Position numbers and translations under genes: made by a program
The notes under the pieces: model-generated
Seen by the model: only the letters and a program-made list of their open reading frames with translations
What the model was told of the DNA's origin: nothing
Database searches by the model: none
Part shown: in pieces, positions 17,219 through 43,990 of the stretch
Layout: each line of letters opens with the position of its first letter
Numbering within the stretch: position 1 is the stretch's first letter
DNA from: Amycolatopsis jejuensis
GTDB taxonomy: Bacteria > Actinomycetota > Actinomycetes > Mycobacteriales > Pseudonocardiaceae
Direction: 5' to 3'
DNA: 64,000 nt
NCBI RefSeq assembly: GCF_000717335.1
Contig: NZ_JNYZ01000043.1
Location: 17,147 to 81,146, forward strand

Positions 17219-18238
17219 ATGCCGTCAGCGAGTGCACGGAAGGACGCGGTCCCGCGTCCCGGTGGCCACCGGAAACGCCCGCCACGACCGGATCTTCGCG
17301 CACTTCGCGGCGCATTGCCGGAGTCGGCGCAGGCCGCGGTGGCCGATTACGAACGGCATCTGTCGCTGGAGCGTGGCCTGTCGCCGCATACCGTGCGCGC
17401 GTACATCGGCGACGTCGTCTCGCTGTTGGCGTTCCTGACCGCGGGGGAGGGGGATAGCCCCGCACGGCGCTTCGACGACGTGGACGTCACGCGGCTGCGC
17501 GCGTGGCTCGCCGGTCTGCGCTCTGACGGCGCCAGCCGCACCACGCTCGCGCGTCGCGCGGCAGCCGTGCGCACCTTCACGGCCTGGGCACACCGCACCG
17601 GTTTGCTGAAGTCCGACCCGGGCGGACGGCTCGCCGCGCCGCGCGCGCACCGGACGTTGCCGGGCGTGTTGCGGGCCGATCAAGCCGATGCGCTCATGGA
17701 GGCCTCCGCGAAAGGAGCAGCCGAACGGGATCCGGTCGCGCTGCGTGACCGCGCGGTGGTCGAGCTGCTGTACGCAACCGGCATCCGGGTGTCGGAGTTG
17801 TGCGGTCTCGACGTCGGCTCCGTGGACTTTTCCCGCCGCGTGGTTTCGGTGGTGGGCAAGGGCGACAAAGAGCGGACAGTTCCGTTCGGTGTCCCGGCTG
17901 CTGGCGCACTCACCGCGTGGCTGGACGACGGACGGCCTGCGCTGGCTGGGGAAACGCCGGTACCGGCGCTTTTCCTGGGGGTTCGCGGCAAACGTCTCGA
18001 CCCGCGCGCGGCACGGCGCGTGGTGCACGAGTCGGTCGCTGCGGTACCCGGCGCACTGGACATGGGGCCGCACGGGCTACGGCATTCCGCCGCGACCCAT
18101 CTGCTCGAGGGAGGTGCCGATCTCAGGAGCGTTCAGGAACTGCTCGGTCACGCTACGCTGGCCACGACCCAGCTCTACACTCACGTGACCGTCGATCGGC
18201 TGAAGGCGATCCATGACCGAGCACATCCGCGGGCCTGA
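17219..18238 (+). CDS. xerC: tyrosine recombinase XerC
   Basis: A 339-aa integrase-family recombinase for dimer resolution at dif. The N-terminal SAM-like core-binding domain ([19 protein letters not shown]) is followed by catalytic residues: Arg in ATGIRVSEL (about 188), Lys in VGKGDKE, HxxR in [10 protein letters not shown] (about 284), His in [10 protein letters not shown] and Tyr in LYTHV (about 319). ATG 17219 is preferred; TTG 17183 would add 12 residues. The 3' end overlaps whiG by 26 bases. Confidence 0.93.
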
Positions 18239-24642: not shown

Positions 24643-26015
24643 TGAGCCAGGTGAGCGAGGAACGCGAGGAGCGGGTGGGACCCACCCCGCCACCGGAACC
24701 GGCCGGGGCGCCGGACCGGGGATCGCGGCCGGACCCAGCGGCGGATGAGCCGCGGGCTGCGGATGCCGAGCTGCCTTTGCCGGGGGGACCGGCTGGGCGT
24801 TCTTCGCTCCGGGATTCGGAGGGACTGGGGAGTTCGGCGGCGGAATCTGCTGCCGAGTTGGGGAAGACGGCGGAATCCGCGGCTCGCGAGTTCGAGGAGA
24901 CGCCGGGGTCGACGGCCGGGGCCGGATCAGGTCCGAGTGCGGAATCCGCTGTGCAGGCTGGACAGAAGCCGAAATTCGCGGCTGGTACGGGTAGGAATGC
25001 GAAATCCGCTGCCGGGGTGGGCAAAGATGCCAAGGCTGACCCTGGGGTAGACGCGGCGGGTCGCTCGGCGAAGGATGCTGCGGGTCGTTCGGCGAAGGAC
25101 GGTGCGGGTCGCTCGGCGAAAGACGCTGCGGGTCGCTCGGCGAAGGATGCTGCGGCTCACCCCGCCAAAGACGCTGCGGCGCAGACTCAACCCGAAAAGA
25201 AAACCTCCCGCGCAGGGCGGGATCTTCCTGCTGCCATCGGGGTCGGGTTAGTGCTCGGGGCGGCGATCATCGTCTCCCTGCTCACCGTGCGTTTCCTCTT
25301 CATCGGGGTGATCGCCGCCGCGATTGCCGTCGGGACTTTCGAATTCGCGGGCGTACTCAAGCGCGTCGCGGATACCCGGATTGCGCTCGTGCCGGTGCTC
25401 GTCGGCGGGCAGGCGATGATCTGGCTGGCCTGGCCGTTCGGGCGGGAAGGCGCGCTCACCGCGTTCGGGCTCACCGTGCTTGCCTGTCTGCTCTGGCGGT
25501 TGCCCGGCGGGGCCAAAGGCTACCTGCGGGACACCGCCACTTCGGTGTTCGCCGCCGCGTATTTGCCGTTGTTCGGGGCGTTCGCGGCCATGCTCGTGCC
25601 ACCCGAGGACGGCGTCGGGCGGGTGCTCACGTTCCTCATTGCCGTCGTCGCGTCCGATACCGGTGGGTACATCGCCGGGGTGCTCGGCGGCAAGCACCCG
25701 ATGGCGCCCACGATCAGCCCGAAGAAGTCCTGGGAGGGCTTTGCCGGGTCGATGGTCGCCGGGATCGTCGCGGGGGCGCTCACGGTCAGCCTCATGCTGC
25801 ACGGCCAAGCGTGGCAAGGCGTCCTGTTCGGCGCGGCCATCGTGCTCACTGCCACGCTCGGCGACCTCGTCGAGTCGCTCATCAAGCGGGACCTCGGCAT
25901 CAAGGACATGGGCACCATGCTGCCCGGCCACGGCGGCATGATGGACCGCCTCGACTCGCTGCTGCCGTCGGCCGTCGTGTCCTGGCTGCTGCTGTCGGCG
26001 TTCGTTCCGGCCTGA
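24642..26015 (+). CDS. cdsA: phosphatidate cytidylyltransferase with long low-complexity N-terminus
   Basis: A 457-aa CDP-diacylglycerol synthase. The catalytic membrane domain (about residues 190-457, several spans) ends with the full CdsA signature SLIKRDLGIKDMG ... LPGHGGMMDRLDS. The first ~190 residues are Ala/Gly/Lys/Glu-rich and include five copies of an 8-residue AAGRSAKD-type repeat. The enzyme makes CDP-DAG for cardiolipin, PE and PI synthesis. The N-terminus is far longer than in typical CdsA (about 270-300 aa). Start ATG 24642 overlaps the frr stop; a later start is possible. Confidence 0.94.
   Translation: MSQVSEEREERVGPTPPPEPAGAPDRGSRPDPAADEPRAADAELPLPGGPAGRSSLRDSEGLGSSAAESAAELGKTAESAAREFEETPGSTAGAGSGPSAESAVQAGQKPKFAAGTGRNAKSAAGVGKDAKADPGVDAAGRSAKDAAGRSAKDGAGRSAKDAAGRSAKDAAAHPAKDAAAQTQPEKKTSRAGRDLPAAIGVGLVLGAAIIVSLLTVRFLFIGVIAAAIAVGTFEFAGVLKRVADTRIALVPVLVGGQAMIWLAWPFGREGALTAFGLTVLACLLWRLPGGAKGYLRDTATSVFAAAYLPLFGAFAAMLVPPEDGVGRVLTFLIAVVASDTGGYIAGVLGGKHPMAPTISPKKSWEGFAGSMVAGIVAGALTVSLMLHGQAWQGVLFGAAIVLTATLGDLVESLIKRDLGIKDMGTMLPGHGGMMDRLDSLLPSAVVSWLLLSAFVPA
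25053..25172. repeat. five 24-bp tandem units inside cdsA
   Basis: Five in-frame 24-bp units encode AAGRSAKD, AAGRSAKD, GAGRSAKD, AAGRSAKD and AAAHPAKD. DNA divergence is small, mostly at third positions and in the last unit. It produces a cationic, helix-prone cytoplasmic arm before the first membrane span. Confidence 0.88.
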
Positions 26016-29892: not shown

Positions 29893-31545
29893 ATGCTGGA
29901 CCGTGCGGTCATCGACGCCCTGTTCCCCACGGATCTGCCCGAACCGGAGCACTGGGAACAGCGCTACCCGGAGCGGCAGCTGCCCGACGGCGCGAAGGTG
30001 ACGCGGTTCGGCCCGTCGCCGACCGGCTTCGTGCACATCGGCGGCATCTACGTGGCGACGATCGACCAGGACGTCGCGCGCCGCTCTGGTGGCCGGTACC
30101 TGGTACGCGTCGAGGACACTGACCAGTCGCGCGAGGTCGAAGGTGCACTGGAGCAGTTCGAACGCGGCTTCGCCTACTTCGGGCTGAAGGCGGACGAGGA
30201 TTCGCTGCGCGGTGGCGACTACGGCCCGTATAGGCAGTCCGAGCGCGAGCAGATCTACCTGACGTACGTACGGCACCTGTTGCGCGAAGGCCGCGCGTAC
30301 ATCGACTTCGCGACGAAGGACGAGCTGGCGTCGATCACTGCGCGACAGCAGGCGACGAAGCTGCCCACTGGGTACTACGGCTCCTGGGCGCTGTGGCGTG
30401 ACGCTGACCCGGCCGACGTACAGGCGAAGCTCGACGCCGGTGAGCCGTGGGTGGTCCGGTTCCGTGCGCCCGACGACACCGGCGCGCGTGTGCGCTTCAC
30501 CGACGCGATCCGCGGCACGATCGAGGCCGAGGCCAACCGCAACGACGTCGTCATCCTCAAGAGCTCCGAGCAGAGCCCGCGGCTGCCCACGTACCACTTC
30601 GCGCACGCGGTCGACGACCACCTGATGCGGGTGAACCTCGTCATCCGCGGCGACGAGTGGATCTCGTCGGTTCCGGTGCACCAGCAGCTCTTCGGTGCGC
30701 TCGGGTTCGAGCCGATCGAGTACGCGCACATCGCGCCGCTGATGAAGCAGGAGGGCGGCAGCAAGCGGAAGCTGTCGAAGCGCAAGGACCCGGAGGCGTC
30801 GGTCGACTTCTACCTCGAGTCCGGCTATCCGGTGCCCGCGGTGCTGTACTACCTGCGCGGCCTCGCGAACGGGCGGCTCGCCGAAATGCCGCTCCCCGAA
30901 GCCCTCGACGCGCCGATCAACCTCGACGAATGCGGGGTCGCGGGTCCGCTCGTGGACCTGGTGAAGCTGGACGACCTCTCCGCGGACCACGTCGCGACGC
31001 TGTCCGGCACGGAAATCCTCGACCTGGTGCTGGAGTGGGCACAGCGGTTCGACCCGGCGCTGCAGGAGGTCCTGGAATCTTCGCGGGAGCTTGCGCTGCG
31101 TGCGCTGGCGGTGGAACGCGACGGCGCGGAGAACCCGCGTAAGGACCTCAAGAAGTGGAGCGATTTCCGTGCGGTCTACGGGTTCTTCTTCCCGCAGCTG
31201 CACCAGCCGGTGACCGGCCCGGAGGACGAGCGGATCGCAGCGCTCGGCGTGCCGTCGGAAGTCGTGCGCGCGGTGGCGTCGGATTTCGTGTCGGCGTACC
31301 GGCAGCTCGACGACGGCCAGGAATGGTTCCAGCAGATCCGCGACGTCGCCGCGAAGCACGGATTTGCCCGTAATGCCAAGGAATACAAGAAGGACCCGGA
31401 GGCGTACCCGGGTTCGATCCGCGAGGCGTCACAGATCATCCGCATCGCGATCACCGGCTCCACCCGCAGCCCGGACCTGCACGCGATCACGGAGGCACTG
31501 GGTGCGGAGGAAACGGTGCGGCGCTTGGACAATCTGGTGGGCTGA
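29893..31545 (+). CDS. gltX: glutamate--tRNA ligase, clostridial-type long form
   Basis: A 550-aa class I aminoacyl-tRNA synthetase. The HIGH motif is in PSPTGFVHIGG (about residue 39) and the KMSKS motif is KLSKRKDPEAS (about 292), preceded by MKQEGGSKR. FRAPDDTG and HVIRG-type motif NLVIRGDEWISS support Glu-tRNA activation. This long form with SKRKDPEA resembles clostridial GluRS more than the usual ~490-aa actinobacterial enzyme with a SKRHGA-like motif. It is probably a second, horizontally gained GluRS or a drug-insensitive paralogue. Its last 105 bp are duplicated downstream. Confidence 0.85.
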   Translation: MLDRAVIDALFPTDLPEPEHWEQRYPERQLPDGAKVTRFGPSPTGFVHIGGIYVATIDQDVARRSGGRYLVRVEDTDQSREVEGALEQFERGFAYFGLKADEDSLRGGDYGPYRQSEREQIYLTYVRHLLREGRAYIDFATKDELASITARQQATKLPTGYYGSWALWRDADPADVQAKLDAGEPWVVRFRAPDDTGARVRFTDAIRGTIEAEANRNDVVILKSSEQSPRLPTYHFAHAVDDHLMRVNLVIRGDEWISSVPVHQQLFGALGFEPIEYAHIAPLMKQEGGSKRKLSKRKDPEASVDFYLESGYPVPAVLYYLRGLANGRLAEMPLPEALDAPINLDECGVAGPLVDLVKLDDLSADHVATLSGTEILDLVLEWAQRFDPALQEVLESSRELALRALAVERDGAENPRKDLKKWSDFRAVYGFFFPQLHQPVTGPEDERIAALGVPSEVVRAVASDFVSAYRQLDDGQEWFQQIRDVAAKHGFARNAKEYKKDPEAYPGSIREASQIIRIAITGSTRSPDLHAITEALGAEETVRRLDNLVG

Positions 31546-31790: not shown

Positions 31791-31857
31791 GAACTCCTGA
31801 ACGACCCGGAAATCGGTGAATGACGCGAAACGTAGCGTAGGAGTGGTTCCGTTCATT

Positions 31858-31962
31858 CGCATCGCGATCACCGGTTCCACCCGCAGCCCGGACCTGCACG
31901 CGATCACGCAGGCACTGGGCGCGGAGGAAACGGTGCGGCGCTTGGACAATCTGGTGCACTGA
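31858..31962 (+). repeat. direct duplicate of the GluRS 3' end
   Basis: This 105-bp stretch matches 31441-31545 nearly base for base, including the stop codon; only scattered changes occur (GGCTCC to GGTTCC, GAGGCA to CAGGCA, GGGCTGA to GCACTGA). The two copies are 417 bp apart in direct orientation and bracket the truncated secreted-peptide frame. The downstream copy encodes an isolated GluRS C-terminal tail without a start. Confidence 0.92.
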
Positions 31963-34616: not shown

Positions 34617-35723
34617 ATGACTGTCCTCCCTCTTGTTTTCGACGCGCCCAAGCGCGGCCTGCCGCCGCGCCATCTCGCCGACCTCACCGTGGCCGAGCGG
34701 GCCGAGGCGGTCGTCGCGCTGGGGGAGAAAGCCTTCCGCGCCAAGCAGTTGTCGAACCACTACTTCTCGCGGCTCACCGTCGACCCGGCGGAGATGACCG
34801 ACATCCCGGCCGCCTCGCGCGAGCGTCTGGTGGCCGACCTGATGCCGCCGCTGCTCACCGAGGTACGCGCGCTGGCCGCGGACGCCGGTGCCACGCGCAA
34901 GACGCTGTGGCGCGCGCACGACGGGACGCTGCTGGAAAGCGTCCTGATGCGGTACCCGGATCGCGCCACGCTGTGCATCTCGAGCCAGGCTGGTTGCGGC
35001 ATGGCGTGCCCGTTCTGCGCAACGGGCCAGGGCGGCCTCGACCGCAACCTGTCGACAGCGGAGATCGTGGACCAGGTCCGCTCGGCAGCCGCGGTGATGC
35101 GCGACGGCGCCATGCCAGGCGGCCCGGGTCGGCTGTCGAACATCGTGTTCATGGGCATGGGCGAACCGCTGGCGAACTACAAGCGGGTGGTGGCGGCGGT
35201 GCGGCGGATCACTGATCCGGTCCCTGGTGGTCTCGGTATTGGGCAGCGTTCGGTGACGGTGTCGACGGTGGGTTTGGCTCCGGCGATTCGTCGGTTGGCG
35301 GATGAGCGGATGCAGGTGCGGCTTGCGGTTTCGTTGCATACGCCGGATGACGAGCTGCGGGATACGTTGGTGCCGGTCAATGAGCGGTGGTCGGTGGATG
35401 AGGTGTTGTCCGCTGCGCGGTATTACGCGGATACGTCGGGTCGGCGGGTTTCGATCGAGTATGCGTTGATCCGGGACATCAACGATCAGCCGTGGCGGGC
35501 GGAGTTGCTGGCTCGCCGGTTGCGGCAGCATCTGGGCCAGTTGGTGCATGTGAATGTGATTCCGTTGAATCCGACGCCGGGTTCGAAGTGGGATGCGTCG
35601 CCGAAGCCGGTGGAGCGGGAGTTCGTGCGGTTGGTGAATGCCGGTGGGGTGGCGTGCACGGTGCGTGATACGCGTGGTCAGGAAATCGCCGCGGCGTGTG
35701 GCCAGCTGGCGGCTGAAGGCTGA
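34617..35723 (+). CDS. rlmN: 23S rRNA (A2503-C2) methyltransferase RlmN, mosaic gene
   Basis: A 368-aa radical-SAM enzyme methylating A2503 of 23S rRNA and A37 of tRNA. The [4Fe-4S] motif is CGMACPFC (about residue 127), followed by GGEP-type [14 protein letters not shown] and a C-terminal acceptor Cys in [12 protein letters not shown]. Codon usage changes inside the gene: codons before about 35220 are C/G-ending, while those after are T/G-rich. The changed half is repeated downstream (38216-41425). The C-terminus may have been replaced by recombination but the frame is intact. Confidence 0.93.
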
Positions 35724-35756
35724 GTTGTTCGTTTCGATGGTGGAGTGTTTGTCGTG

Positions 35757-36029
35757 ATGTATGCCCCCAGCCTGTTGGAGCCGGCTGGGGAGGAGCTGCG
35801 GCTCGCGGATGTGTGCGGCCGTGGTGCGACCGAGGTGGCTCGCGAGGCGCGTGCACTGCTGGGTGAGCGGTTCAGCACGGTGACGTTCATGTATGTGCTG
35901 ATGCGGGCGTTCGAGGTGGAGTACACGGCAGCACGGGATGCATCGCGGTGGCATGAGTTCCATGGCGGCCCGCGGGCGCTGTCGGATGCTGACCTGGAGA
36001 AGCTGCTCGCTCCCTGGCTTGCCCGCTGA
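35757..36029 (+). CDS. small conserved protein downstream of rlmN (copy 1)
   Basis: A 90-aa protein of no known family: LLEPAGEELRLADV, ARALLGERFSTVTFMYVLMR, AFEVEYTAARDASRWHE and a C-terminal ALSDADLEKLLAPWLAR. It is predicted helical, cytoplasmic. GGAG at 35742 allows GTG 35754 or ATG 35757. A diverged paralogue (41456-41719) follows the second rlmN fragment, so the two genes travel as a unit. Low-GC-third codon use matches the foreign half of rlmN. Confidence 0.7.
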   Translation: MYAPSLLEPAGEELRLADVCGRGATEVAREARALLGERFSTVTFMYVLMRAFEVEYTAARDASRWHEFHGGPRALSDADLEKLLAPWLAR

Positions 36030-36224
36030 CCACTTCGATCAGCTGCCTGCCTCCGAACAAGCTAAGAGTTTCTCGACACGAGCGCGTAGCGGGATCGTCT
36101 TGCCCGGTATCGAGCTTCGGAAGAGCCAGTCGTTGGACGTGTTGCCGTAGGGGCGTTCGAGTACCGGGTCACGCCACCGGCATGCCTGCTCACGCAGCCA
36201 TCCGCCGGGAACGAAGACGAACTT

Positions 36225-37148
36225 GTGTACCTCTTCTGCCGTCGCACGAACGTCGATTCCGTGCTGGCCGCCACAGCTTGGGCGGATGCCGGACTCACGA
36301 TCCGCCGCGAGCGGGTGACCGGTGTCCACCCGCTGGCCGGGCCCGGAGCCGAGATCACCACCGACAACGCCTCCTACACCGCGGACTTGGTCGTCGATGC
36401 ACGCGGCGGTGCGAGTTCGAGAGGTTCCTCCAAGCACATGGACGAATCGTGCGACCTGATCTACACCTCCCGGTTCTACACGTTGACCGGACCTTCTCCC
36501 ACCAGCTTGGAATACGGCTACGGAACCAGTCGCTCGTTCCGCGGGTGGTCGGGACAGGTCTTGCGGCAGGGAACGAGCGATTTCGTGCTGGTCATCGCTC
36601 GCATGATCAGCGAAAAAGCCCCGTTTCGGATCGCTGGCACAGCTGACTTCGACCGGATTCTCTCGAAGATTCCCGGCATAGCCGAGTGGTGTCGGCCGGG
36701 CACATCGATCCCCCTTTCCGACCTGTCCACCCATAGCGGCGCCAGGAATGTGCTGGTAGACACCTCGACGGATCCTGACTATCTCGTTCGCGTCGGCGAC
36801 TCACTCGCGGTGACCGATCCCCAGCTTGGGCAAGGGGCTTCCCTTGCGGCGTGGGAATCCGGCGTGCTGATCGAAGAAATATCCCGCAACAGTCCCGCCG
36901 CCGCAGCCGCGTCATATCGGCGGCAAGTGGAACGGGTCCTGGAAGATCGGGTTCTCCGATCACGGTCGTATTCGAGGTACCGATCCGCCCTCTGGCCTGG
37001 CGACTCGAGCCGGAAACCGGATGATTCGGCCGCGGACGCGCGTGTCGCGGAGCGACTGGACCTGGAGCGAGATGCCAACGAGAACCGCGACTCCTGGTTA
37101 CGCTGGAACAGATCCGTCGCACTGCTGGATCTTGGCGACGACCGGTGA
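36225..37148 (+). CDS. 5'-truncated FAD-dependent oxidoreductase
   Basis: A 307-aa C-terminal piece of a group-A-like flavoprotein. VVDARGG and VGDSLAVTDPQLGQGASLAA (GD motif for FAD ribityl contact) are visible, and CRRTNVDSVL matches the segment that normally follows the lost dinucleotide-binding N-terminus. The same frame is open back to a TAG at 36087, before that unrelated sequence. The GxGxxG Rossmann start is absent, so it is a pseudogene or remnant. The break lies next to the duplicated rlmN block, so recombination likely removed the start. Confidence 0.65.
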   Translation: MYLFCRRTNVDSVLAATAWADAGLTIRRERVTGVHPLAGPGAEITTDNASYTADLVVDARGGASSRGSSKHMDESCDLIYTSRFYTLTGPSPTSLEYGYGTSRSFRGWSGQVLRQGTSDFVLVIARMISEKAPFRIAGTADFDRILSKIPGIAEWCRPGTSIPLSDLSTHSGARNVLVDTSTDPDYLVRVGDSLAVTDPQLGQGASLAAWESGVLIEEISRNSPAAAAASYRRQVERVLEDRVLRSRSYSRYRSALWPGDSSRKPDDSAADARVAERLDLERDANENRDSWLRWNRSVALLDLGDDR

Positions 37149-37188
37149 ACTCGGCGATTGGTGACAACGAAAGCGGCGGGAGTCCACT

Positions 37189-37686
37189 TTGCCCGATCTT
37201 GTAGCACTGGCGATCAAGGACGGCTGGACGTCCGCTCGGCGCGATGACTACCCGGTGACGCTCGAGTACTTCCAGGCTCTCCGTTCCGAACACCCGGAGG
37301 ACCCGCGGACCCAGTACGCGCTCGCTTGCGCGCTGGACTACTCCGGCTTGGAGGCCGGTGCGGCGGAGGAGTACGAGCGGTGTGACTGGTCAGCGCTGCC
37401 GGATGACGATCGTCGCGGCGGGAGGGTGCAGTATGCCAGCACGCTGCGGAACCTGGGCCGGTACAACGAGGCGCTCGCCGTGCTTCGGGCCGTGCGGCAG
37501 GAACACCGCCTGGATGGCGCCGCTGTCGTGTTCACGGCGCTGACTCTGGTCGACCTGGGGAACGCGGCCGCCGGTGTCGCGGAGTTGGCGAACCATCTCC
37601 TGGATGTGTCCGACGACCAGAGGCTGCTGCGCTATGAGTGGGCACTTCGCCGGTACATCGGGGCGATCGGGACATCGCCTTCCTGA
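37189..37686 (+). CDS. tetratricopeptide-repeat protein
   Basis: A 165-aa helical-repeat protein with TPR-type units (DDYPVTLEYFQALRSEHPED; RNLGRYNEALAVLRAVRQEH). Start TTG 37189 follows GGGAG with good spacing. It directly follows the truncated oxidoreductase (40-base gap) and may once have been its operon partner. A scaffold role is implied by the fold; partner unknown. Confidence 0.75.
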   Translation: MPDLVALAIKDGWTSARRDDYPVTLEYFQALRSEHPEDPRTQYALACALDYSGLEAGAAEEYERCDWSALPDDDRRGGRVQYASTLRNLGRYNEALAVLRAVRQEHRLDGAAVVFTALTLVDLGNAAAGVAELANHLLDVSDDQRLLRYEWALRRYIGAIGTSPS

Positions 37687-38215
37687 GGCCGGACCGCGAT
37701 TCCGATCTGCGTCAAACTTTCCTAAGAAGACTGACCGGCGCACAGGGGTCTCGCGCGGTGATGCCGAAGCAAGGGCAGGTCCTGGCCGCGTTCCCGGTGA
37801 TCGGAAGGCAATCGATCTCTGGCGCTGATCATCGCCACTCCGACTGATCGGTTTGGGCAATGAACTGTCAGCGTGCTGGACAGTGTGTCCCCGACGGGCC
37901 AGTTGCGATACATCAACCTGACAACTGGTCGACGAGTAACCTCGGCCAACACGGCTGCAGACCTGACCGCCTAGGTTGCTCACGGTGGCGATACGAGCCC
38001 CTTGAAAGGTTGGGCTTGGTCCAGCGCGGTCTAGGCCTGGCTGTCGTGATCTTGCAATGTCGGTCGACGCCAAGCTAGTGGATGCGTGTGGTGCCAGCAT
38101 CGTCTGCCGGGTTCGCAAGCGCAGGAAACGTGGGGCTCATGTCGAAGGATGAGGAAGCGGAACACGCTGTTGAACCGGCGCGATGCGTATCGCTCGAAGG
38201 TTGTAAAACGGTGGG
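37687..38215. other. 530-base gap, no gene seen
   Basis: No frame with acceptable codon use, motif or ribosome site. The sequence is of lower GC than its flanks and ends where similarity to rlmN resumes (about 38216). It likely represents the decayed edge of the inserted segment. Confidence 0.5.
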
Positions 38216-38742
38216 CATGGGTAAACCGCTGGCGAATTTCCGTCGCGTTATATCGGCGATACATTGTATTGTTGATGCGGCTCCTGCTGAGCTTGGCATT
38301 TCGCACCGTTCGGTGACGGTGTCGACGGTGGGGTTGGCTCCGGCGATCCGGAAGTTGGCGGGCGAGCGGATGCAGGTTCGTTTGGCGGTGTCGTTGCACA
38401 CGCCGGACGACGAGCTGCGCGATACTTTGGTGCCGGTGAACGAGCGGCGGTCGGTGGATGAGGTGCTCTCGGCAGCCCGGTACTACGCGGACACGTCCGG
38501 TCGCCGTGTCTCGATCGAGTATGCGTTGATCCGGGATATCAATGATCAGCCGTGGCGGGCGGAGTTGCTGGCTCGCCGGTTGCGGCAGCATCTGGGGCAG
38601 TTGGTGCATGTGAACGTGATTCCGTTGAATCCGACTCCGGGCAGCAAGTGGGATGCCTCGCCGAAGCCGGTGGAGCGGGAGTTCGTGCGGTTGGTGAATG
38701 CCGGTGGGGTGGCGTGCACGGTGCGTGATACGCGTGGTCAGG

Positions 38743-38831
38743 TGTCGTCTGCCACCAGCATGGGACCACCTGAGCGCTGGTTTGCCATGAGGATGGGACC
38801 ACCTTGATCAGGGTTTTGCCACTGATGGGAC
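38743..38831. repeat. left end of the IS21 element with multiple terminal repeats
   Basis: Three copies of a TGGGACCACC-ending motif occur at about 38750-38770, 38786-38806 and 38817-38833. The first is the outer inverted repeat. Repeated transposase-binding motifs at the ends are a hallmark of IS21. Confidence 0.8.
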
Positions 38832-38894
38832 CACCACCCGGACGTGTCCGTGTGGCGTCCCGACCTCCGGTCGTCTGCCGTTTGTGCTGGTCAG

Positions 38895-40448
38895 ATGGCA
38901 TATCGGGAGGTTTCGGTGATCGAGATCAAAGAGGTGCTGCGGCTGTGGCTGGCGGGCCATTCGCTGCGTGAGGTGACCCGGCTTGCCGGGTTGGACCGGA
39001 AAACGGTCCGCAGGTACGTCCAGGCCGCGCAGGCGGCAGGCGTGGCCCGCGAGGGCGGCGACGGGCAGCTGACCGACGAGGTTCTCGGGGCGGTGGTGGC
39101 GGTGGTTCGCCCGGACCGGCCCCGCGGCAACGGCGCCTCGTGGGAGGCGATCGCCGTGCAACGTGAGCAGATCCAGACCTGGCTGAAGCATGATTTGACC
39201 CTGGCGAAGATCCACATGCTGCTCGGGCGCCGCGGTGTCGTGGTGCCCTACCGAACGCTGCACCGATTCGCGGTGGCGGAGCTGGGGTTCGGCCGCCGTC
39301 AGCCGACGGTGCCGGTGACCGATGGCAAGCCAGGCCAGGAAGTGCAGGTCGATTTCGGTCGGCTCGGCCTGGTCCCGGACCCGCCCACGGCGCGGCAACG
39401 GGTCGCTCAGGGGTTGATCTTCACCGCGGTCTACTCGCGGCACATGTTCGTCTATCCGACGCTGCGGCAGACGCTCGAGGATGTGGTGGCGGGGTTCGAG
39501 GCGGCGTGGGTGTTCTTCGGCGGCGTGTTCGCGGTTGTGGTGCCGGACAACATGAAAGCGATCGTGGATCAGGCCGACGCGGTCGATCCGCGGTTGAACG
39601 ACGCGTTCCGCGAGTACGCCCAGTCTCGCGGGTTCGCGGTCGATCCGGCGCGGGTCCGGCATCCGCGTGACAAGCCGCGCGTTGAACGGTGCGTGCAATA
39701 TGCACGGTCGAATTTCTTTGTGGGAGAGGACTTCCGCGACATCGACGACTGCCGTCAGCGTGCGGTCGTCTGGTGCGCCGAGGTCGCCGGGACCCGCATC
39801 CACGGCACCACGCAGCGACGGCCGGGTGAGGTTTTCGAGGCCGAGGAGTGCCCGGTGTTGCTTCCGCTGCCGACCGACGGGTTCGTGATTCCGTCCTACA
39901 CGCGGCCGAAAGTCGCCCCGGATCGGCATGTCGAGGTGGCCAGGTCTCTCTATAGCGTTCCGGGTGACCTTGTCGGGCAACGGATCCTGGCCCGCGCCGA
40001 CGGCACGACGGTCAAGCTCTACTGGCGCGGCCAGCTGATCAAAGTCCACTCGCATCAGCAACCGGGCCGGCGGCGCACCGATCCGGCGGACCTGCCCAGC
40101 GAGGTGACCGCCTACGCGATGCGCGATCTCGACGCGTTGAACCGCCGGGCTGCGGCGCACGGCGATCACATCGCCGCCTACGCCGCCGCGCTGCTGGAGC
40201 ATCCGTTGCCCTGGACCAAAATGCGGCAGGTCTATCGGCTGCTCGGTTTGGTCCGCCGACACGGCGCCGACGCGGTCGACGACGCCTGCGCCCGGGCGCT
40301 GGAGGCCGAGGCGGTCAACGTCGGCCTGATCGACCGCATGCTCACCCGCGGCCTCGACGGCCGACCCGTCACCGCGCCGGTTCCGCTCAGCACCGCCAGC
40401 CGTTTTGTCCGTGACAGCAAGGACTTCACCGTCAGGAGGCCTTCATGA
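38895..40448 (+). CDS. istA: IS21 family transposase IstA
   Basis: A 517-aa DDE transposase. N-terminal helix-turn-helix (LAGHSLREVTRLAGLDRKTVRRY) binds ends; RNase-H-fold catalytic residues are D in VQVDFGR (about 152), D in VVVPDNMKA (about 218) and E in PRVERCVQYAR (about 262). C-terminal DNA-binding region follows. The last bases overlap istB by ATGA. Full-length and apparently functional. Confidence 0.94.
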   Translation: MAYREVSVIEIKEVLRLWLAGHSLREVTRLAGLDRKTVRRYVQAAQAAGVAREGGDGQLTDEVLGAVVAVVRPDRPRGNGASWEAIAVQREQIQTWLKHDLTLAKIHMLLGRRGVVVPYRTLHRFAVAELGFGRRQPTVPVTDGKPGQEVQVDFGRLGLVPDPPTARQRVAQGLIFTAVYSRHMFVYPTLRQTLEDVVAGFEAAWVFFGGVFAVVVPDNMKAIVDQADAVDPRLNDAFREYAQSRGFAVDPARVRHPRDKPRVERCVQYARSNFFVGEDFRDIDDCRQRAVVWCAEVAGTRIHGTTQRRPGEVFEAEECPVLLPLPTDGFVIPSYTRPKVAPDRHVEVARSLYSVPGDLVGQRILARADGTTVKLYWRGQLIKVHSHQQPGRRRTDPADLPSEVTAYAMRDLDALNRRAAAHGDHIAAYAAALLEHPLPWTKMRQVYRLLGLVRRHGADAVDDACARALEAEAVNVGLIDRMLTRGLDGRPVTAPVPLSTASRFVRDSKDFTVRRPS

Positions 40449-41272
40449 GCCCCGCCAGCCGCGCCACCACGGCCCGGAACACGACCACCAAGCCCATCGA
40501 GGTCACCGCGGAACTCAAGGCGCTGCTGCGGCGCCTGAAGCTCGGCAGGCTGCTCGACACCCTGCCCGAACGCCTCGCCCTCGCCCGCGGCGAACACCTT
40601 CCGCATCATGACTTCCTGGAGATGCTGCTCGCCGACGAGGTCACCCGCCGCGACCGTCAATCAGCGCAGGTGCGCGCGAAGATCGCGCACCTGGAACCCG
40701 GGATGCACCTGGATGCCTGGGACGAGTCGACCAAGGTCGCCTACGACCGGCAGCTCTGGGCCGAGCTGACCTCGCTGCGGTTCCTCGCCGACTCCTACAA
40801 CGTCCTCATCATGGGACCGGTCGGAGTCGGAAAAACCTTCCTGGCCAACGCTTTGGGCCACGCCGCGGTCCGGCGCAAGTACTCCGTCCACACCGAACGC
40901 GCGGACAAGGTGTTCAAGCGGCTCAAGGCCGCACGACTGGACCACACCTACGACGAGGAAATCCGGAAACTGCACCGCGTCGAACTGCTCATCCTCGACG
41001 ACCTCGCCCTCCACCCGCTCGACGCGGTGCAGACCAACGACTTCTACCAGCTGATCGTCGAACGTCACCGGGAAGCCTCCACCATCGTCACCTCCAACCG
41101 GGAACCGCCGGAGATCCTGGCCATGATGGCCGACCCGCTTCTCGCCCAATCCGCGATCGACCGGTTCCAGTCCGCCGCCTTCGAACTCGTCATCGAGGGC
41201 GAGAGCTACCGACAGCGCCAGAAGCCCACCATCGCCGCTCTCGCCGACCGCGACCGCGACACCCGCAGTTGA
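40445..41272 (+). CDS. istB: IS21 transposition helper ATPase IstB
   Basis: A 275-aa DnaA-like AAA+ ATPase that selects target DNA and stimulates IstA. Walker A MGPVGVGKTFLANAL (about 123) and Walker B LLILDDLAL (about 185) are present. It overlaps istA by four bases. Confidence 0.95.
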   Translation: MSPASRATTARNTTTKPIEVTAELKALLRRLKLGRLLDTLPERLALARGEHLPHHDFLEMLLADEVTRRDRQSAQVRAKIAHLEPGMHLDAWDESTKVAYDRQLWAELTSLRFLADSYNVLIMGPVGVGKTFLANALGHAAVRRKYSVHTERADKVFKRLKAARLDHTYDEEIRKLHRVELLILDDLALHPLDAVQTNDFYQLIVERHREASTIVTSNREPPEILAMMADPLLAQSAIDRFQSAAFELVIEGESYRQRQKPTIAALADRDRDTRS

Positions 41273-41350
41273 CCATTTCCACCGACTGGACCACCATCAA
41301 CACACGGCCCGCGACCGCCGGCCCGAGATGGTCCCTAGCTCGTGGCAAAC

Positions 41351-41378
41351 GGTGGTCCCATGCTCATGGCAGGCGACA
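41351..41378. repeat. right terminal inverted repeat of the IS21 element
   Basis: 28 bp that, reverse complemented, match the left end at all but four positions. It is immediately followed by the target duplicate GTCAGG. Confidence 0.9.
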
Positions 41379-41455
41379 GTCAGGACATTGCGGCGGCGTG
41401 CGGGCAGCTTGCTGCTGAGGGTTGAGTTTTCCTTTTCAGAGTTGGAGTAGTCGTC

Positions 41456-41719
41456 TTGTTGTGTGCGCCGAGCCTGCTCGATCCGGCGGCGGAGGAACTG
41501 AAACTGGCCGACGTGAACAGCGCAGCAGAGGCAGCCCGAACGGCACGAACGTTGCTGGGCGAACGCTTCGACGCGATGAGCTTCATGTACGTCCTGATGC
41601 GGGCATTCGAGGTGGACTACCACGCTGCTCGGGCGGCCTCTCGGTGGCACGGGTGTGGGCAGGGTGCGTTGTCGGACACGGATCTCGAGGTCGTGCTTTC
41701 TCCGTGGCTCGGTCGCTGA
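41456..41719 (+). CDS. small conserved protein downstream of rlmN (copy 2)
   Basis: An 87-aa paralogue of the gene at 35757: LLDPAAEELKLADV, ARTLLGERFDAMSFMYVLMR, AFEVDYHAARAASRWHG and LSDTDLEVVLSPWLGR. Its start is TTG 41456 or 41459. It follows the interrupted second rlmN fragment, mirroring copy 1. Sequence conservation between copies, mostly at protein level, suggests both have been under selection. Function unknown. Confidence 0.68.
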   Translation: MLCAPSLLDPAAEELKLADVNSAAEAARTARTLLGERFDAMSFMYVLMRAFEVDYHAARAASRWHGCGQGALSDTDLEVVLSPWLGR

Positions 41720-41840: not shown

Positions 41841-42773
41841 CTACTGCCAACTGCGCTGCGCCGGGTGCCACTGACCTGCTGGCGGGGCTGTCTGCAGCAG
41901 GGGCGTGACGAACGCGTCCGCCAAGTCCATGACGCCGGTGAGCGAGCGGAACTCGGTCGAAAGCTCGCGGACGCCCGCAGCGGCTGCCCGGTAACCGGCG
42001 TCCCACGTTTTGTTCGGCACGGTAAAGGCGGCAGGCAACGTCAATGTCGTACCTCGTGCGATCCGGCGCTCGGCTTCCTTGTGCAGGACTGTGTGTACGG
42101 CGCGGCCCTCCAGCGTCTCTTTGAGCATGATCAGTACGAGGTCGACGAGGTCTTTGTACCGGCTGGAGTTGATAGTTGCAGCCGGTCCGTGCATTTCGTA
42201 CATCGCGCAGATTTTCTCGGCGACGTGGTCCTCGAGTGGGTACATGCGTATTTCGGGCCACGTCTTACAGTCTGTGGCAAAGGTCGGCACCAAGGGCGCG
42301 GTGACGATCTTGCCGTGAGGAAGGTGGCTGGACGCGACCACGTCAACACTTACCCTGGTCAACTCGGCGTGGGCGGCCATCACTCGGAATTTGATCTTCT
42401 GAGTACGGCGCTCCATGTTGGCGACAGCGGACGACTCGTAGTGCTCGAAAGAGAGATGGTCGTCGAGCTGAACCTCCGCCGCTCGCTTCAGGGCTTTCAC
42501 CGCGGCGTCGACCGTGTCTTCGGCGGAAAGCAGGTCGACATCGGTCGAGTACCGCGCAGCCGGCCAGCGCACGAGCAGAGCCTGACCGCCCTTGAGGACC
42601 CAGCCTTGCGGGTCATGATGGAAAACCCGGGCCATCAGGCGGCGATGGAAGTACAGGTCAAGTAGTTCTCTCGGCGAGCTGCCGGTGCTTCGGGCAGCGT
42701 TTTTCGCCCTATCGCTTAGCGAAGCGCGTAAGGCCCTGGATGTCATCGGTCGCGGCGGATCAAGAGGGGGCAT
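41841..42773 (-). CDS. AbiEii-type nucleotidyltransferase toxin
   Basis: A 310-aa protein of the AbiEii/AbiGii nucleotidyltransferase family. WVLKGGQALLVRW and STDVDLLSAEDTV form the nucleotidyltransferase signature (GG...DxD) at about residues 60-80; VAEKICAMYE and SSRYKDLVDLVLI are further family motifs. Such toxins block tRNA function by adding nucleotides. Its putative antitoxin AbiEi is immediately upstream on the same strand. The start at 42773 is uncertain; 42746 is an alternative. Confidence 0.88.
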   Translation of the reverse strand: MPPLDPPRPMTSRALRASLSDRAKNAARSTGSSPRELLDLYFHRRLMARVFHHDPQGWVLKGGQALLVRWPAARYSTDVDLLSAEDTVDAAVKALKRAAEVQLDDHLSFEHYESSAVANMERRTQKIKFRVMAAHAELTRVSVDVVASSHLPHGKIVTAPLVPTFATDCKTWPEIRMYPLEDHVAEKICAMYEMHGPAATINSSRYKDLVDLVLIMLKETLEGRAVHTVLHKEAERRIARGTTLTLPAAFTVPNKTWDAGYRAAAAGVRELSTEFRSLTGVMDLADAFVTPLLQTAPPAGQWHPAQRSWQ

Positions 42774-42811
42774 GATGGTTAGTGGTCGCTCGGCTCATTT
42801 TCGTGACGCGG

Positions 42812-43990
42812 TTAGTCAAGTTCTTTGCGGTCAGCCTTGTCCTGAGTCTGCGTGGTGGAAGACTGCTGGTCGCTAAGAGTGGTCAGCCTAGCCTGGACCC
42901 GGGCCAAGGCCGCGGCGGCGTCGCGTCCCAACGCTCCGTCCAGGACGTCCTCGCGCGAGCGAGGCGACAACCCGGTGAGCGCCTGCGCGCTCAGGGTGTT
43001 GCCCGTGGTCAATGCGGCGATCCGCGCGACGACGTCGCTGTGGCCGATGAGGTCGCTGAGGGGCGCTGTCGGAGACAGAGCCAACGTCGAGGCAGCTGCG
43101 TCCGTCGCCAGCTTGGCGACGGCGCTGGCGAGACCAGCCGCTGGCTCGGACATCAGTGCCGACGTGAGATCGGTCCTATGCAGTGCTCCGATGCCGGATG
43201 CTGCGGGGAGCAGGTCACGGAGGAGACGGCTGGCGGCTTCCGGGGGAAGGTCCAAGATCGGCGCGCCGCTCGCCGCAAGTTCCATCCGTGTGGTGAGTGG
43301 TTGGTGGCCGAGGCGCGCGGGGCGAATTGCGAGCTCGGCGGTGGTCAGACCGATCTGCTCGAGAAGGTGTTCCAGCAGCGCATCCCCGGACGTGGGCCGG
43401 ACTCGGTAGCGGCGGGCGTAGGGGGTGATGCGGTCGGCGAGCTCGTCGAGGCGCAGCTTCCCGGCCACCACGGCCTCGCGGATAACGGTGGCAACGTGAC
43501 TGCCATCGAGGTGTTGTTCGAGCAGGTCGCACACGGTCCTCAGCATCGTCGTGACGGGCAGTCCGTCGATCAGAGTCACATCCTCGTCTGCCAGATCTCC
43601 GGGGCGTAGCCACACGTCGGGGTCGCGGCTGCTCCGCCGGCGCGGCGTTGTCAGTGTGATTCGGTCGTTGACCAGCTCCCCGACCTGGTGCAGCCTCGTT
43701 GCCGTCGCATGCGAGACCACGCCTCCGTCGGTTTCCAGGGGCTGTCGTTCCCAGCTGGGAGTTTCCGGTCGAAGCGTGAGCCAAACGGCTTGCTCTTCCT
43801 GGGCGTCGGTGATGCCAGCTGCCGTCGAGGCGTACACGCCACGGCGGACCAGATCCAGGAAACCAGCTCCCTTTAGCCGGTGCAGGGTCACAGCGTCCAC
43901 GCCCACGCTCTTGGCCTGTTTCGCTGTGACCATGCCCCACTGATCGGCTGTCCAGGTGCCGAGCTGCGCAAGGGCGCGCTGAGTCTCCAT
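42812..43990 (-). CDS. AbiEi-type antitoxin/regulator
   Basis: A 392-aa protein with an N-terminal winged helix (MVTAKQAKSVGVDAVTLHRL, LVRRGVYA) of the AbiEi antitoxin type and a long C-terminal part lacking known motifs. AbiEi normally represses its own promoter by binding inverted repeats; no direct toxin contact is required (type IV). The gene is longer than most AbiEi (~200-300 aa). The toxin gene follows 39 bases downstream. Confidence 0.85.
   Translation of the reverse strand: METQRALAQLGTWTADQWGMVTAKQAKSVGVDAVTLHRLKGAGFLDLVRRGVYASTAAGITDAQEEQAVWLTLRPETPSWERQPLETDGGVVSHATATRLHQVGELVNDRITLTTPRRRSSRDPDVWLRPGDLADEDVTLIDGLPVTTMLRTVCDLLEQHLDGSHVATVIREAVVAGKLRLDELADRITPYARRYRVRPTSGDALLEHLLEQIGLTTAELAIRPARLGHQPLTTRMELAASGAPILDLPPEAASRLLRDLLPAASGIGALHRTDLTSALMSEPAAGLASAVAKLATDAAASTLALSPTAPLSDLIGHSDVVARIAALTTGNTLSAQALTGLSPRSREDVLDGALGRDAAAALARVQARLTTLSDQQSSTTQTQDKADRKELD

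Follow-up and report, generated by a model that had tools for sequence, protein, structure and literature searches.

The middle of rlmN as a probable attachment site for serine-integrase elements in Amycolatopsis

We analyzed a 64,000-nt stretch of the Amycolatopsis jejuensis genome (NCBI RefSeq assembly GCF_000717335.1, contig NZ_JNYZ01000043.1, positions 17,147 to 81,146 of the forward strand), hereafter the window; it is part of contig C43 of a 10.1-Mb draft genome. The subject is the rRNA methyltransferase gene rlmN, whose 3′ half is present twice in the window. Comparison with relatives suggests that the middle of rlmN is probably an attachment site for serine-integrase elements that bring a replacement with them, and that the window holds a remnant of such an element.

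Two copies of the rlmN 3′ half in the window

The features of the locus are the following:

34617-35723, + strand: rlmN copy A, intact, 368 amino acids (TIGR00048 319.9 bits, above the cut-off; Pfam Radical_SAM and RlmN_N)
35154-35164, + strand: putative attachment-site (attB) core GGCATGGGCGA in the codons of MGMGEP; junction point of the relatives' cut 5′ halves and displaced 3′ halves
35745-36029, + strand: small gene A, 94 amino acids, adjoining rlmN, without Pfam match
36030-38199, + strand: cargo between the copies, with an open reading frame (ORF) at 36225-37148 and a TPR gene at 37189-37686
38200-38215, + strand: element end (P arm) GTTGTAAAACGGTGGG, one mismatch to the element-end pattern
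38212-38742, + strand: copy B of the rlmN 3′ half, a pseudogene with an element-type III start (86% identical to 35152-35682; type assigned by comparison)
38743-41378, + strand: IS21-family element inside copy B (Pfam IstB_IS21, rve, and Mu-transpos_C_2)
41379-41425, + strand: remainder of copy B, the last rlmN codons
41456-41719, + strand: small gene B, 87 amino acids, about 65% identical to small gene A

Copy A was the only full RlmN found in the genome. The first-pass annotation had proposed that the 3′ half of rlmN is duplicated together with the small gene, and sequence matches confirmed this: 35152-35682 is 86% identical to 38212-38742 over 531 nt, and 35677-36029 (the rlmN tail and the small gene) is 69% identical to 41379-41719, the duplicate being located 3.1 to 5.7 kb downstream of rlmN. 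The copies are also, as had been noticed, nearly identical near the 3′ end and diverged upstream, with identity rising from 65% next to the core to 92 to 97% over codons 281 to 360. The repeat begins at codon ~179 (35152) and not at ~35220, where the changed half had been placed. Small gene A has 60 homologues, and all those with a visible organism name belong to Amycolatopsis.

The recurrence described at 38216-41719 is real, but it is not continuous, since the IS21-family element splits copy B. The genes for IstA (38844-40448) and IstB (40445-41272) lie between ends of the form TGTCG...CGACA, and the 6-bp target repeat GTCAGG is found at 38737-38742 and 41379-41384; with both genes, a terminal TG...CA, and a target repeat, 38743-41378 is an IS21-type element. 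The ~2.2-kb insert around which the copies were said to lie corresponds, between the copies proper, to 36030-38199. As to its content, the TPR gene is supported by Pfam, while the label of a truncated oxidoreductase is unverified, the ORF at 36225-37148 giving no Pfam match at E ≤ 0.001. When the cargo was compared with rlmN-downstream DNA of 29 genomes without a second copy, only G065 matched, at 84% over about 108 bp (36044-36151), with some further, scattered matches at the translated level. None of the 29 genomes had a match to the DNA that follows small gene B, and no relative offered a clean empty site for the downstream side.

Serine recombinases and prophages at the cut rlmN

In two other Amycolatopsis genomes, G009 and G017, the rlmN 5′ half (matched over codons 1 to 185) continues into TGACCCAATCCCTACCGTTTGACAAC, and the start of a large serine recombinase gene lies within about 60 bp of the cut half. 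A recombinase adjoins all four rlmN 5′ halves found to end at codon ~185, the other two being in G113 and G229, which belong to other genera. Resolvase, Recombinase, and Zn-ribbon domains were confirmed in the G009 and G113 proteins. At both ends of the inserted elements (attL and attR), a short common core is accompanied by imperfect inverted arms, the symmetry being judged by eye.

The G009 and G017 recombinases are 97% identical; the G017 gene (L041 3883-5334) contains one internal TGA, and its ORF is 483 amino acids long compared to 511 in G009. The G113 and G229 recombinases are 36 to 37% identical to that of G009, and those of G269 and G328, which are not in rlmN, are 48 to 49% identical to it; therefore, either two lineages reached rlmN separately or some left it. 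In a draw of 297 genomes from one family, which we take to be Pseudonocardiaceae, six matched at E ≤ 1e-60. The rlmN 5′ half adjoins the gene in three of these (G017, G113, and G229), and none was found within the fetched recombinase locus of G269, G277, and G328. A search of 390 genomes with the G113 protein returned eight, with the gene in rlmN in G009, G017, G113, and G229 and no rlmN within the fetched recombinase locus of G158, G314, G328, and G392. The G009 recombinase, when searched against genome contigs, gave one locus, in Amycolatopsis sp. CA-126428 (G017). Related serine recombinases at other places in the family, outside rlmN, adjoin a similar arm, TTTGACAAC or TTCACAAC (L148, L149, and L178).

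A tyrosine integrase was also considered as the agent and was rejected, since the PF00589 match is present with or without displaced copies; it served only as a marker of the native locus. Among the matches listed, 10 of the 12 genomes searched have it ~13 to 24 kb upstream of rlmN, on the contig that carries rlmN. The window has a tyrosine recombinase domain (PF00589) at about 17666-18190, upstream of rlmN.

The two parts of the interrupted rlmN in G113 and G229, a cut 5′ half and a displaced 3′ half, are about 45 to 47 kb apart, and a complete rlmN ends 56 to 60 bp before the displaced half. All 10 G113 proteins and all 9 G229 proteins that were given (the latter not including the recombinase) matched PHROGs, the families comprising terminase, portal, major head, tail, endolysin, and DNA polymerase, as well as integrase in G113; the prophage rlmN itself gave a weak match. 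These two elements are ~45-kb prophages. G009 has a complete rlmN as well, separated from the preceding cut 5′ half by about 257 kb and followed 15 kb later by the displaced 3′ half. A complete rlmN ORF is thus located between both junctions in three of the four genomes (G009, G113, and G229), and in these three the host rlmN is broken and rebuilt at neither junction.

The prophage rlmN copies L169 (G113) and L171 (G229) are mosaics: they match host rlmN at 95 to 100% over about 20 bp of upstream sequence and the initial ~60 codons, and identity drops to about 60% beyond. Among named phages, 43 records match rlmN, all under 60% identity and none close, and IMG/VR scans with the G113 rlmN and the G113 recombinase gave no matches. 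The G009 recombinase is of the same protein type as the serine integrases of mycobacteriophages and other phages; 716 phage records match it, all under 60% identity, the best of the matches listed being about 34%.

The first-pass annotation had envisaged an element that inserts into, or recombines with, the 3′ end of rlmN and restores it. Insertion and replacement are supported by the relatives' junctions and the carried copies; the target, however, is the middle of the gene.

Displaced 3′ halves and element-type genes across the genus

We surveyed 80 genomes of the genus. A full rlmN was found in 79, and G017, a draft assembly, showed only pieces; the earlier description of rlmN as essential gains no support from these counts. 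Extra rlmN 3′ fragments are present in at least 22 of the 80 genomes, a lower bound because candidates were only partly scored, which rules out a duplication confined to the window genome. The fragments lie downstream on the same strand as rlmN, except in G017, whose fragments are spread over separate contigs; some (G005, G071, and G100) are short or degenerate. Those with an intact start begin at codon 174 to 179. Five displaced fragments begin at codons 316 to 321 (G017 C69, G027, G072, G091, and G093).

With up to three mismatches allowed, the element-end pattern was found at 14 places in 11 of the 80 genomes, and at 13 of these places (the exception being G065 C233) the end runs into rlmN sequence. 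The control, a reversed pattern, gave 0 places, ruling out chance occurrence. A similar pattern was detected in 7 genomes of 4 genera in the 297-genome draw (control 0). Genes resembling dxr, rseP, and ispG (called ORFs, named by eye) come after the displaced 3′ half of G343, an arrangement that fits the native side of the locus. A common flank was seen downstream of rlmN in 32 of 1225 genome pairs and upstream in 161 of 1225. Plain tandem duplication, or homologous (Campbell-type) insertion of rlmN 3′-half DNA, is a very unlikely source of the extra copies. About 0.8 kb of homology is available, and homologous exchange could account for copy identity away from the core, which rises in the window and falls in G067; however, a process without site-specific recombination leaves the conserved 16-bp end, the fixed codon, and the adjacent recombinases unexplained.

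Separate trees of the two rlmN halves, a comparison proposed with the first-pass annotation, revealed a foreign copy in G009, though not in the window, whose 3′ half is considered below. The G009 cut 5′ half is sister to G035 (100/99), as is the displaced 3′ half (97/87); the 5′ half of the full G009 rlmN groups with G098/G030, and its 3′ half is unplaced. These positions are those of two halves of one host gene and a foreign complete copy. In G025, the displaced half and the 5′ half each pair with G074. When compared to the nearest relative, the functional rlmN of G025, G091, and G009 is 89-97% identical in the two segments before the core and falls to 67-75% in the two after it. G029 likewise falls, from 89-97 to 56-75%, but the relative nearest to it, G091, is itself of element type. 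Seven control pairs of native-type genes, one of which (G072/G027) carries displaced fragments, showed no abrupt fall at the core, and neither did G028, G000, G067, and G099.

The sharp boundary in G025, G091, and G009 bears on two other routes to the copies that have no recombinase. In one, which we consider somewhat unlikely, the cut native 5′ half would have recombined homologously with the 5′ part of the element rlmN, deleting the recombinase side. Element and native copies in G113 and G229 are nearly identical (95 to 100%) over their first ~60 codons, which would allow this, and the G028 functional gene, with a leucine codon 178, a near-prophage right end, and no sharp core boundary, has the expected appearance; yet the boundaries of G025, G091, and G009 coincide with the core and are not scattered along the 5′ half. 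In the other, the copies would be non-autonomous cassettes similar to the staphylococcal cassette chromosome (SCC), with a site formed by the GTTGTAAA arm and the recoded 3′ half, inserted by a recombinase acting in trans and restoring rlmN at once. The sharp boundary agrees with this route, and so does the fact that the element arm adjoins a 3′ half of element type in the window, in G074, in the middle copy of G067, and in G017 C6, C159, and C187, as well as, with a deletion, in G103; G017, moreover, holds the recombinase element plus several such units. The recoded starts, however, have no ACAAC-like outer motif of the kind seen by eye at recombinase-bearing element ends, and no PF07508 match was found near rlmN in seven searched genomes with displaced copies and no rlmN recombinase (G000, G005, G024, G025, G027, G028, and G029). 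We regard cassettes as an unlikely explanation.

The surroundings of the core differ between copy types: CTGATGGGNATGGGGGAACC in the prophage-borne copies takes the place of TTCATGGGNATGGGYGARCC in native genes. Codon 178 is TTC or TTT in all 45 native-type genes of the genus, all 15 genes of other families, and four of the five functional genes of element type; the fifth, that of G028, has CTA together with a nearly prophage-type right end. The AAYTACAA stretch after the core is kept in 45/45 native-type genus genes, 11/15 other-family genes, and 7/10 displaced halves, compared to 0/5 element-type functional genes and 0/9 other element-type or prophage copies; since this stretch was among the features used to assign genes to the element-type group, the prophage copies alone count as independent here. 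In serine integrase sites, the zinc-domain motif is placed 5 bp nearer the center in attB than in attP, according to the portion of PMC3783163 used here. The ACAA motif in rlmN is, by eye, about 4 bp nearer the center. Recoding may be what blocks re-insertion into element-type copies.

A shift in codon style inside rlmN, as first described for the window, was confirmed there, the fraction of codons ending in G or T (GT3) being 0.50 in the 5′ half and 0.85 in the 3′ half. The same shift in related species had been named as an observation that would speak against a mosaic gene. It is seen within the genus, in all 50 genomes examined of the 80 (mean GT3 from 0.48 to 0.69), but 15 genomes of other families show it weakly or not at all (0.474 to 0.488). 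In the genus mean, the best change point is at the core codon (offset 0, R2 0.0948; 0 of 300 permutations), with near-equal fits at +10 (R2 0.0947) and +2 (R2 0.0941). Among single genomes, the change point is at most 10 codons from the core in 30 of 50 in the genus, compared to 1 of 15 outside; in the other 20 it lies elsewhere. The genus-wide shift fits element-derived 3′ halves but may instead reflect ordinary regional bias. That it is simply a within-gene feature of Amycolatopsis rlmN, unconnected with the duplications, seems rather doubtful given the best change point on the core and the weak or absent shift in the other families, but the 45 genomes with native-type cores show it as do the 5 with element-type cores, offsets from 0 to +12 fit nearly equally, and single genomes often change elsewhere.

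Proposed mechanism and known systems

The attachment core in rlmN would be GGCATGGGYGA, in the codons of the MGMGEP motif, and would be used by elements with large serine recombinases, at least some of them apparently temperate phages. Integration cuts rlmN at about codon 179, as seen at the junctions. Compensation would come from the element: prophages of two related genera have a complete rlmN next to their right end, and in several Amycolatopsis the functional gene consists of a native 5′ half and an element-type 3′ half, with a native-type 3′ half displaced behind an element end. Element-type copies, recoded around the core, would perhaps no longer serve as attB. Upon loss of the recombinase, remnants would be left, that is, extra rlmN 3′ halves with the small gene and cargo behind the GTTGTAAA end.

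Several observations weigh against this scheme. No complete rlmN was found in G017; several contigs of this genome end inside rlmN sequence, and loss in assembly is a possible cause. An rlmN-associated recombinase was found in only 2 of the 80 genus genomes, and none near rlmN in the window genome, whose four PF07508 matches are all on other contigs. The displaced native half of G113, a used site, does not have AAYTACAA, nor do those of G343 and G099, and the use of such a site in G113 weakens the idea that recoding of this motif blocks insertion. The functional rlmN of G028 belongs to those without an abrupt fall at the core. The copy pairs of G028, G067, and G075 group with each other, so that displacement of a vertically inherited half is clear only in G009 and G025. 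A native-type functional gene accompanies a displaced copy in G067, G074, G075, G099, and G103, which is not the product of one simple insertion. Copy A of the window has a native-type start, and in the tree its 3′ half falls with both its own clade and copy B. The window genome yielded no native 3′ half other than copies A and B.

For the window itself, the native-type start of copy A, its grouping, and the absence of an abrupt identity fall at the core relative to its nearest relative leave a foreign origin of the functional 3′ half undemonstrated; the displaced copy B, in contrast, is element-type. Its start resembles the functional 3′ halves of G029 and G343, and with the element end that precedes it, this indicates that copy B either derives from an element or served as the functional half until a later insertion. 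We propose that an element-type 3′ half displaced behind an element end was later split by the IS21-family element and that copy B was partly homogenized with copy A. In the tree, copies A and B pair by their 3′ halves (100/96), and this pairing, together with the 92 to 97% identity over codons 281 to 360, may result from gene conversion. Since a separate native 3′ half would be expected behind a single insertion, the window locus is probably a decayed composite.

Other observations in the window concern the neighborhood of rlmN. The last 110 bp of a glutamyl-tRNA-synthetase-like gene (31436-31545) are repeated 0.3 kb downstream at 31853-31962 (95%), and the distance from the end of this gene to rlmN is ~150 bp in G028, ~1 kb in G001, and 3 kb in the window; a second small insertion with 3′-end duplication may have occurred there. 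Two 59-bp direct repeats (25049-25107 and 25121-25179) are 85% identical. AbiEii toxin-like and AbiEi antitoxin-like genes adjoin small gene B (41841-43990).

Partial parallels are known. The SCC elements of staphylococci carry ccr genes and attach at the end of rlmH; as with the serine-integrase elements proposed here, an rRNA methyltransferase gene serves for attachment, and accretion and recombinase-less remnants occur, but the rlmN site is at codon ~179 and half or whole genes are carried. Prophage e14 and phage 21, which integrate at icd of E. coli by a tyrosine integrase, likewise supply a replacement 3′ part of a host gene; that part is short, whereas here about half of the gene or a complete copy is supplied. 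The closest known system is tRNA-dependent lysogeny of mycobacteriophages, for which the portion of PMC10865867 used here describes a tyrosine integrase, a tRNA target, and a proven requirement. Both systems have a short common core, a host gene that is broken and not rebuilt, and a prophage copy (PMC10865867, same portion). They differ in that rlmN is a protein-coding rRNA methyltransferase gene, the enzyme is a serine recombinase, and both the replacement function and any requirement for it are putative. The same target gene in an actinobacterium is used by AICE03 of Streptomyces RLB3-6, an actinomycete integrative and conjugative element (AICE) inserted in rlmN with 11-nt direct repeats; the portion of PMC9513070 used here mentions no replacement copy and gives no position within rlmN. 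Our searches of the open-access PubMed Central literature turned up no account of phages breaking and replacing rlmN.

A bolder proposal, to which we attach a rather low probability, is that of self-rescuing phages, which would break rlmN in its most conserved codons, carry a recoded rescue copy that is not an attachment site, and make lysogeny dependent on the phage rlmN; the 3′ halves of the gene would then be element-derived throughout the genus. Attachment of serine-integrase elements in the middle of rlmN would, if true, mean that host-gene-dependent lysogeny goes beyond tRNAs and includes a protein-coding gene for rRNA modification, and would illustrate a route by which a mobile element targets a strongly conserved coding motif while the host keeps the enzyme. 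It may also explain the two codon styles in one gene genus-wide, and it points to new candidate pairs of serine recombinase and attachment site in an antibiotic-producing genus.

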